From the IMG/VR virus record IMGVR_UViG_3300021401_000028, positions 1 through 31,764 of that record: a stretch of DNA of 31,764 nt. One strand, written 5' to 3'. The position numbers were made by a program, and so were the translations under genes. The DNA comes from a virus. Below are positions 1-2,194 of this stretch, piece by piece; positions within the stretch are counted from its first letter, which is position 1, and every line of letters begins with the position of its first letter. Below the pieces are notes generated by a model, which was not told the DNA's origin, did no database searches, and was given only the letters and a program-made list of their open reading frames with translations.

Positions 1-717
1 GGCGCGATCCCTGATGGTCGCTACGCCGCCAAGATCATCGCGGTGGAGCGGAAAGAGGGCAAGGAATCCGGGGAGCCGTATTTGGAGCTAACGTGGGAAG
101 TCACCTCCAAGAAGTGCAACGGCCGGGAGGTTCGGTTCGATAACTACTCGCTGCAGCCCCAGGCGCTCTGGCGGCTGAAAGGCATGCTGGAGGCGATGGA
201 AGTCGAGATCCCGGACGGTGAGCAGGACATCGACTTCGACGACCTCATGGGCAGCGAGACCGAGTGCATTATCGAGGTGACCGGCCAGCCCTCGCCGGAT
301 GGCGACAAGACCTACGCCCGCGTCACCGGGCACGCGCCGCTGTCGGACGGGGACACCGTGGACGACGACGCAGAGGACGAGAAACCCGTACGCCGCAAAC
401 CTGCGAAGGATGAAGACGAGGACGACGAGCCGCCGAAACGCCGCAAGCCCACCGCGAAAGACGACGACGAAGATGAGGACGAGGATGAGCCTCCGAAGCG
501 TCGCGCGAGCAAAAAGGACGACGATGACGAGGAGGAAGACGAGGACGAGAAGCCCTCCAGCAAGAAGGTCAAGAAGGGTGCTAAGGTGAAATTCAAGGAC
601 GAGAAAAACAAACTCACCAAGGGCGTGATTGACAGCATCGATGGAGACACCGCAGTCGTCACCTCCGATAGCGGAGATTACGAAATAAGCATCGACGAGT
701 TGACCGTCGTAGGTTGA
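1..717 (+). CDS. Single-stranded-DNA-binding-like protein (DUF669-like), N-terminus cut by window edge
   Basis: The reading frame is open from base 1, so the start lies outside the window. The GTG at 43 falls inside the domain (the residues before it read IPDGRYAAKIIA) and is unlikely to be the start. The first ~110 residues resemble phage DUF669/SSB-like proteins made next to helicases: a 'G-Y/R-A-KI' strand, then YLELTWEV, then a helix with ALWRLKGMLEAM. The next ~70 residues are low complexity, with Asp/Glu runs alternating with PPKRR/KKV basic patches in about three imperfect repeats. The last ~45 residues (GAKVKFKDEKNKLTKG onward) look like a small KOW/Tudor-type beta barrel. A likely role is binding ssDNA and recruiting replication partners through the acidic tail, as other SSBs do. 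The family assignment is from sequence resemblance only; the tail and C-terminal barrel are what is seen directly. Confidence 0.6.
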   Translation, partial: GAIPDGRYAAKIIAVERKEGKESGEPYLELTWEVTSKKCNGREVRFDNYSLQPQALWRLKGMLEAMEVEIPDGEQDIDFDDLMGSETECIIEVTGQPSPDGDKTYARVTGHAPLSDGDTVDDDAEDEKPVRRKPAKDEDEDDEPPKRRKPTAKDDDEDEDEDEPPKRRASKKDDDDEEEDEDEKPSSKKVKKGAKVKFKDEKNKLTKGVIDSIDGDTAVVTSDSGDYEISIDELTVVG

Positions 718-832
718 CCGTCATCGGTTGATTAGTCACCAGAGTCCCGCCCCGCGGCGTGAGTCCCAGCCATCAGACCCCACGGGGCGCTCTGGTGTTA
801 CGGGCAGCCGCGGGGTCTGGGCTGAGAACCTT
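718..832 (+). promoter_or_regulatory. Structured non-coding leader before the helicase, with competing stems
   Basis: These 115 bases separate two genes in an otherwise overlapping cluster. They hold three perfect inverted repeats. Stem A pairs 737-744 (CACCAGAG) with 790-797 and continues inside with 749-754 (GCCCCG) and 783-788. Stem B pairs 750-758 (CCCCGCGGC) with 807-815. Stem C pairs 774-781 (CAGACCCC) with 812-819. B cannot form together with the inner part of A or with C. A and C together would make an H-type pseudoknot ending 13 bases before the helicase ATG. This is the layout of an attenuator or translational leader, but an origin or protein-binding site is also possible. No clear sigma-70 promoter is seen. 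Confidence 0.45.
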
Positions 833-2194
833 ATGAAGTTGAGAGGTTATCAAAACGAAGCCGTAGCCAAAGCGCTCAACCTCATGCGCGAAGGAGGTGG
901 TTTTGGGCTATGGATGGAAATGCGCACGGGCAAGACCGTCACCGCGATAAAAATCGCTGACACTGTGCAGCCCGCGCACCTGTGGATCATCTGCCCCAAG
1001 GCCGGTGGTGCGGCGCCCGAGGTGTGGTGGCGCGAGATCGGCAAGTGGATGAAGCTCCATAATGGGTTGGATAACACCCAGATCCGCGTTGAGAATTACG
1101 AGCAGTGGGTCAGCAAACGCCGTGCGGTGTACAAGGAGGCCAAAGCCGTCCGCGACCTCATGGTCATCTGCGATGAGTCGCACTACACCAAAGCCCGTGG
1201 CACAGCCCGCTCCCGCGTCGTACGGCGCCTGGGCAAGTACGCCCGCTGGCGGCTGGCGCTCACGGGCACCCCCATCGCACAGGGGCCCCAGGACGCTTGG
1301 GCGCAATTTAACTTCATTGATCCTGAGATTTTCGGCAAGTTCGATAACACCTACGAAGATCCGAAAACCCAGAAAGTCATCCTGGAAGAGGGTTTCGAGG
1401 GCCGCTACCTGATTCGCGGCGGGTACAACAAAAAGGACGTCGTCGGTACCCGCAACGAGGAGGAGTTTTACGCGAAGTTCCATGCGCATTCCTACCGCAA
1501 GACGCTGCGGGAGGCCCGCGACAAGCCGTTGATGCTCAAGTACACGACCGTCCCCGTGGAGCTGAAGAAAGCGACCCGCATCGCCTACGAGGAGCTGAAA
1601 CAGGACCTGATCACGGAAGTCAACAAGACTAAAGTCCGTGTCAAGAACGTGTTGGCCAGTCTCACCAAGCTGCAGCAGATCACGGGCGGCAGTGTGCTGG
1701 TCGCCCCTGAGGTGGAAGGTGAGAAGCCGACGCTATTGGATATCAGCCGGGAGAAGCTCTACGAGCTGACTCGCCTCATCCGGCAGACCCAAGCGGAGCA
1801 CCCCGGCAAGTTCATTGTAATTGCGCGGTTCATTCACGAGATCGACCGCATCGCCGCCGAAGTGCGCCGGCTGGGATACAGTGTCGCGGTGGTACGCGGC
1901 GGGGAGCCCTACGATGGCAAGTTCCGGGAAGACTGCATCGTCTTGCAGATCCAGTCGGGTATCGCGGTGGATATGTCACAAGCGAGTTGCATAATCTGTT
2001 ACTCAATTGACTTCTCGATGATCAATTTCGAGCAGGCACGCTTTCGCATACTTGACTTTGAGAAGCCGATCGGGCATTACTACTTTATTAGCGCTATTGA
2101 CACCATCGACGAAGACATCTATTTAGCGATAACAAGAAAGCGCGGCGTGGCTAAATTGATCTGCGACGTTTATAGGACGAGGAAAGCAGCATGA
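833..2194 (+). CDS. SF2 (SNF2/DEAD-like) DNA helicase
   Basis: This 453-residue protein carries the classic superfamily-2 helicase motifs in order: a Q-like LRGYQNEAV at the N-terminus, Walker A in EMRTGKTVTA (near residue 30), Walker B DESH in VICDESHYTK (near 115), motif III LTGTPI (near 145), and a motif VI-like QARFRI near residue 410. It would use ATP to remodel or unwind phage DNA in replication or recombination. ATG 833 is chosen because LRGYQNEA directly follows it. The frame stays open upstream to a TTG at 728, but that stretch is Arg/Pro/Ser-rich, full of inverted repeats and not protein-like. The Shine-Dalgarno at 833 is weak (TGAG), so translation may depend on the structured leader. 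The stop overlaps the next gene in ATGA. Confidence 0.9.
   Translation: MKLRGYQNEAVAKALNLMREGGGFGLWMEMRTGKTVTAIKIADTVQPAHLWIICPKAGGAAPEVWWREIGKWMKLHNGLDNTQIRVENYEQWVSKRRAVYKEAKAVRDLMVICDESHYTKARGTARSRVVRRLGKYARWRLALTGTPIAQGPQDAWAQFNFIDPEIFGKFDNTYEDPKTQKVILEEGFEGRYLIRGGYNKKDVVGTRNEEEFYAKFHAHSYRKTLREARDKPLMLKYTTVPVELKKATRIAYEELKQDLITEVNKTKVRVKNVLASLTKLQQITGGSVLVAPEVEGEKPTLLDISREKLYELTRLIRQTQAEHPGKFIVIARFIHEIDRIAAEVRRLGYSVAVVRGGEPYDGKFREDCIVLQIQSGIAVDMSQASCIICYSIDFSMINFEQARFRILDFEKPIGHYYFISAIDTIDEDIYLAITRKRGVAKLICDVYRTRKAA

Follow-up and report, generated by a model that had tools for sequence, protein, structure and literature searches.

A conserved candidate RNA element follows SSB and annealing protein genes in several unrelated phage lineages

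Introduction

Post-transcriptional control of the dosage of single-stranded DNA-binding proteins (SSBs) in phages is, to our knowledge, known in few cases. Structured RNAs have been described between or beside other phage genes: T7-type intercistronic RNase III sites are stems with an asymmetric internal loop that lie between phage genes, and the DUF2800 and DUF2815 RNA motifs are phage-gene-associated candidate cis-regulatory RNAs from comparative genomics. As for SSBs, gp32 of phage T4 binds a pseudoknot in its own leader (PMC535899; PMC3014915), and M13 gp5 represses the gp2 mRNA, which exemplifies an SSB acting on the mRNA of another gene (PMC535899). Cluster K mycobacteriophages carry ESAS, 17-bp consensus repeats with a spacer of 4–13 bp, which occur in many copies per genome together with a SAS (PMC3203893).

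The element described here resembles the T4 gp32 and M13 gp5 systems in being a structured candidate RNA in phage replication genes that is linked to an SSB. The T4 gp32 operator is found in the SSB gene's own leader and consists of a pseudoknot followed by UUAAA repeats, whereas our element lies 3′ of the SSB gene, lacks a conserved pseudoknot and has one core across unrelated SSBs. Neither the 5′-leader location nor the conserved pseudoknot of a T4 gp32-type operator was found. SAS/ESAS are likewise inverted repeats near phage start codons with unknown function (PMC3203893), but the present element occurs in one or two copies per contig, has covarying arms that flank an apical part of 16–52 nt, and is not accompanied by SAS; the few copies and the distant, covarying arms exclude it from the cluster K SAS/ESAS. 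Unlike T7-type RNase III sites, it has invariant core letters and a short stem. The DUF2800 and DUF2815 motifs likewise lie beside phage genes of these kinds, but the present element matches no Rfam 15 family in the member loci scanned.

Results

Anatomy of the element

The window, i.e., the whole stretch of 31,764 nucleotides that was analysed (IMG/VR record IMGVR_UViG_3300021401_000028), is a viral contig. It contains one copy of the element, with its structured core at 744–822 between a DNA-binding protein gene and a helicase gene (Table 1). The DUF669 protein encoded upstream combines an SSB-like domain with an acidic tail and a small domain at the C-terminus; its stop codon (715–717) lies ahead of the element, at 26 nt from P0. 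The element consists of a 4-bp base (P0, GUCC/GGGC) that includes a conserved U.G pair, an asymmetric internal loop (across members, 5′ CG opposite 3′ NNU or RRAU), a helix (P1) of 9–15 bp and a free apical part. Positions 744–822 show the features that define the family, namely the GUCC/GGGC base, the CG/NNU or RRAU loop and a P1 of at least 9 bp. At the 3′ end of the window's DUF669 gene (700–727), we also observed a 14-nt imperfect tandem duplication (TTGACCGTCGTAGG, 700–713; TTGACCGTCATCGG, 714–727), which is absent from the relatives that were read and probably shifted the DUF669 stop codon of the window upstream.

Table 1. Coordinates of the element and its neighbouring genes in the window.
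Feature	Position	Strand	Basis or remark
Upstream gene, DUF669 protein, cut by window start	1–717	+	Pfam DUF669, E 2.3e-11; orthologues in relatives
Whole element as covariance-model match	742–826	+	R1 and R2 models
P0 5′ strand, GUCC	744–747	+	Pairs with 819–822; GUCC in 46/46 members
Internal loop 5′ side, CG	748–749	+	CG in 44/46 members, CU in 2
P1 5′ strand (repeat 2)	750–758	+	Covarying helix with 807–815
Apical region, variable	759–806	+	Local fold in window; unalignable across members
P1 3′ strand	807–815	+	Covarying helix with 750–758
Internal loop 3′ side, UCU	816–818	+	RRAU in most members
P0 3′ strand, GGGC	819–822	+	Invariant in 46/46 members
Spacer, UGAGAACCUU	823–832	+	Weak GAG Shine-Dalgarno-like motif; 10 nt from P0 helix to ATG
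Downstream gene, SNF2/DEAD-type DNA helicase	833–2194	+	phrog_62, E 4.7e-71; Pfam SNF2-rel_dom

One of three inverted repeats is conserved

A first-pass annotation of the spacer at 718–832 had reported three perfect inverted repeats, all of which are present. Repeat 1 pairs CACCAGAG (737–744) with CTCTGGTG (790–797) and is extended by GCCCCG (749–754) with CGGGGC (783–788), repeat 2 pairs CCCCGCGGC (750–758) with GCCGCGGGG (807–815), and repeat 3 pairs CAGACCCC (774–781) with GGGGTCTG (812–819), ending 13 nt before the ATG at 833 as had been noted. Of the dinucleotide shuffles of 718–832, 0.05% contained three or more perfect inverted repeats of at least 8 bp, and 2.75% had one that reached 9 bp or more. 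The folding energy of this region is unremarkable or mildly low (z −1.65, with 10 of 200 shuffles equally low). In pseudoknot-free predictions for the window, the fold with P0 and P1 (−53.5 kcal/mol) and the repeat-3 fold (−53.7 kcal/mol) are iso-energetic, so competition between them is possible in this sequence; the repeat-1 fold is predicted at −48.9 kcal/mol. P1 was dominant (probability of at least 0.86) in 15 of the 16 other members examined, and the competition thus looks private to the window sequence.

In eleven contigs, we found helicases that are 59–78% identical to that of the window, with a DUF669 gene upstream. In most close relatives, the spacer that follows DUF669 contains AGTCCC-n-(arm)...(arm)-NNU-GGGC, where the arm corresponds to repeat 2 altered on both sides and the interior cannot be aligned. 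Compensatory changes in related phages, on which the first-pass annotation had staked its claim, were therefore found for one of the three pairings (repeat 2), while repeats 1 and 3 were not conserved. This compensatory substitution bears out the proposed selected RNA structure between the two genes. It does not extend to the pseudoknot of repeats 1 and 3, both of which are absent from the relatives, nor to a switch between mutually exclusive stems, as repeat 2 alone is conserved and P1 dominates nearly everywhere. The neighbouring genes overlap as had been described (2191 versus 2194, and 2616 versus 2619). The spacer had also been called non-coding, and in the window a frame from the TTG at 728 is in fact open into the helicase. 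Relatives carry a stop in that frame directly before the helicase ATG (e.g., TAG-AAC-ATG in L003), so the spacer is not conserved as protein, and a coding extension from TTG 728 was ruled out.

In loci L008, L010, L002 and L075, a small gene lies between the element and the helicase, which indicates that the element stays with DUF669 rather than with the helicase. The more distant relatives L011 and L078 lack the element in the corresponding place, and L007, a close relative, has an unrelated long stem there. The GTTACCCC stem shared by L007 and L075 was considered as a second family and set aside, with too few copies to claim one. Extra long stems were also seen beside the element in the same spacer in L054 (3664–4015), L032 (2820–2900) and L075 (after the element), and one of those in L054 has three G.U pairs. 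In L002 and L012, a truncated second helicase start (MQLRPYQLECANKALALMQSEGG...) is found upstream of a small gene and the complete helicase; this is a trace of partial duplication or recombination at the junction.

A family in unrelated phages

We scanned IMG/VR with sequence patterns and filtered the matches for the stem, which yielded copies of the element in unrelated phages. We list 46 distinct copies, all in viral contigs, and further copies were also seen. Members are 54–92 nt long, and the spacing of their arms is not phased. Tandem copies were observed in L224, L324, L325 and L351; those in L224 lie among tRNA-like fragments (about 2100–2450). As the scans required the core letters, the invariance of the core is partly a product of the search, and the P1 filter favours paired arms. 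Across 29 aligned sequences, all from lineages other than that of the window, 98.4% of the cells were paired, compared with 41–45% after sliding (99.2% were paired in an earlier sequence set). Double changes were found in 77 cells, compared with 23.1 ± 3.8 in shuffles (0 of 500 reached this number).

Two covariance models were built from sequences other than the window. Model R1, from which the window, L003/L005 and L269 had been left out, matches the window at 33.2 bits (E 2.4e-6) and also finds other copies of the family. Model R2, built from the 29 sequences of other phage lineages, recovers the held-out window at 24.6 bits (E 2.1e-4) and matches the rest of the window's lineage at 21–43 bits. 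Within the window, positions 742–826 are the sole convincing match. In addition, the contigs of L284 and L285 were retrieved by SSB protein similarity alone and carry the element just 3′ of the SSB gene. Selection by the search alone does not explain the held-out recovery by R1 and R2 or these two copies. The architecture, with an invariant P0 and internal loop, a compensating P1 and a free apex, is conserved in several phage lineages that are unrelated to one another.

In the member loci scanned, the element was matched by none of the Rfam 15 families, at gathering or permissive thresholds; the sole overlap was mir-345, on the wrong strand and with 14.3 bits (E 2; gathering score 65). ARAGORN found no tRNA gene in the window or in ten loci. 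A true tRNA was identified by Rfam in L367 alone, where the element (1464–1548, minus strand) lies directly 5′ of the tRNA gene. An intrinsic terminator was rejected, as GGGC is followed by purine-rich A/G sequence without an immediate U run. In bacterial genomes, a helicase search was empty, and a first pattern scan gave, among the matches listed, only chance-like matches after the stem filter. The strict pattern was found in none of 1190 bacterial genomes from three phyla, so the element appears to be phage-borne. It was absent from seven cultured relatives of the SSB proteins, and no similar element is described in the literature searched, the coverage of which was incomplete. Cis-acting mRNA structures of phages are already known; the motif, its association with SSB genes and its position at the stop codon are new as far as tested.

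The element tracks the stop codon of the upstream gene

A median of 5 nt separates the stop codon of the long upstream frame from P0, and in 30 of 42 cases the distance does not exceed 13 nt. Typically, the element starts 0–13 nt after the stop of an SSB or annealing gene (DUF669, Gp2.5/Enc34-like or Sak4-like); some of the longer distances belong to second tandem copies or to frames that continue in +1. Upstream genes include Gp2.5-like SSBs (phrog_112 and phrog_7011) and a Sak4-like annealing protein (phrog_124). The copy in L370 follows a DUF669-type protein that is related to that of the window and matches SSB families (phrog_6015). Proteins of unknown function lie upstream in L224, L293, L328, L348, L354, L357, L343 and L345; an Enc34 SSB is present in the module of L224. 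The downstream gene differs among phages, and the element follows the SSB/annealing-type gene regardless, which does not fit its earlier designation as a helicase leader. In about half of the members, the next start codon lies 10–15 nt after GGGC with a Shine-Dalgarno sequence in between. Across all members, the distance to the next start varies widely, so control of the downstream gene would not be uniform.

The end of the SSB gene has a further peculiarity in five loci (L269 and L339 on the minus strand, L284, L285 and L364). Their SSB frame terminates in CTT-TGA or CTT-TAG, beyond which the +1 frame stays open up to a DDDIPF*/DDEIPF* tip that ends 4–13 nt ahead of the RNA element. This arrangement suggests a probable prfB-like programmed +1 frameshift, which would yield an SSB form with an acidic protein-interaction tip. 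It was absent in the relatives checked. In the record of phage RIO-1 (NC_021300, genes 22/23, locus L316), gene 23 is noted as resembling the C-terminal part that the SSB lacks, another hint of frameshifting in an SSB gene of a phage.

RNA or DNA

The first ten positions of P1 contain 449 Watson-Crick pairs, 8 G.U, 1 A.C and 2 other combinations among 460 cells, a count that is biased towards G.U because the stem filter admits G.U and excludes A.C. The U.G pair of P0 is kept in 46/46 copies; the stem filter has no bearing on it, but the search had fixed its letters. For the apical part, where the stem filter likewise plays no role, the plus strand gave the better fold in 31 cases versus 13 (p 0.0096), and all copies with clear flanking genes are in the sense orientation. 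The element is therefore likelier to act as an RNA on the coding strand.

Discussion

The element probably controls the expression of neighbouring genes on one message. We tentatively favour, at somewhat under an even chance, a cis-acting intercistronic mRNA element that would adjust termination and re-initiation or shield the upstream 3′ end. It would act in cis on a polycistronic mRNA: with the spacing common among members, about 4 nt, the 5′ strand of P0 would be covered by a ribosome that terminates at the upstream stop, and this ribosome would halt against P1. Judged by typical ribosome footprints, the start of P1 would lie near the leading edge of the terminating ribosome. The next Shine-Dalgarno often starts within a few nucleotides of P0, and the element might set re-initiation or coupling, such that downstream translation is uncoupled from, or metered relative to, the abundant SSB. 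A possible added role would be shielding of the SSB message or upstream frame from 3′ decay. As the same core follows unrelated protein families, its reader would be expected to be the ribosome or another conserved host factor (e.g., a host RNase) rather than each SSB. Simple coupling does not explain the tandem copies in L224, L324, L325 and L351. Also difficult to reconcile with intercistronic control are the copies that follow proteins of unknown function, the 26 nt between stop and P0 in the window, the uneven distances to the next start, and L007 and L011, in which an unrelated stem or no element is found.

Intercistronic RNase III sites and REP elements provide comparison cases for another explanation, in which the element is cut by host RNases or blocks them, and the SSB message would last longer than the remainder of the operon. 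The anchoring at the stop of the preceding gene instead of the start of the following one, the strong GC stem, the tandem copies and the unrelated stem that L007 carries at this position are consistent with such a stabiliser or processing site. We regard it as unlikely but a serious contender, as a structural role alone needs no invariant letters in P0 and the internal loop, and P1 is short for RNase III. The association with SSB genes and the T4 gp32 and M13 gp5 precedents (PMC535899; PMC3014915) would fit a translational operator, to which excess SSB binds to repress the downstream replication gene. One invariant core serves unrelated SSB families and non-SSB genes, however, which makes repression by SSB less likely here; the element is also 3′ of the SSB gene instead of in its leader and has no conserved pseudoknot, and we consider this operator improbable.

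Processive antitermination by a put- or EAR-like RNA acting on host RNA polymerase in the replication operon would be compatible with a common host target, the sense orientation and one to two copies per genome. The location inside operons and tight against stop codons makes this reading very unlikely. About as improbable is a DNA element such as a replication origin, cruciform or recombination site, the first of which had been among the initial suggestions. Its location in replication modules and its inverted repeats speak for it, but the stems hold G.U and almost no A.C on the transcribed strand, the U.G pair of P0 is conserved, the plus strand folds better, copies are always sense where flanking genes are clear, and neither the unphased arms nor the variable length agrees with it. 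Least probable of all is the original model of a helicase leader in which mutually exclusive stems and a pseudoknot switch helicase expression: the window sequence itself has two iso-energetic folds, but the relatives lack repeats 1 and 3, P1 prevails in 15 of the 16 other members examined, and four loci (L008, L010, L002 and L075) have another gene after the element.

Returning to intercistronic control, we propose, as a conjecture that falls short of even probability, that the element represents an undescribed RNA class in unrelated phages. At the stop of SSB/annealing genes, the ribosome or a conserved factor of the host would recognise it, and the dosage of replication proteins would be set in this way. 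Searches for the element in cultured phages are made easy by the covariance models and the 46 listed sequences. It forms a compact, testable RNA family that is tied to the SSB genes of otherwise unrelated phages, and, being shared, it would suggest that these phages exploit one host target in common.
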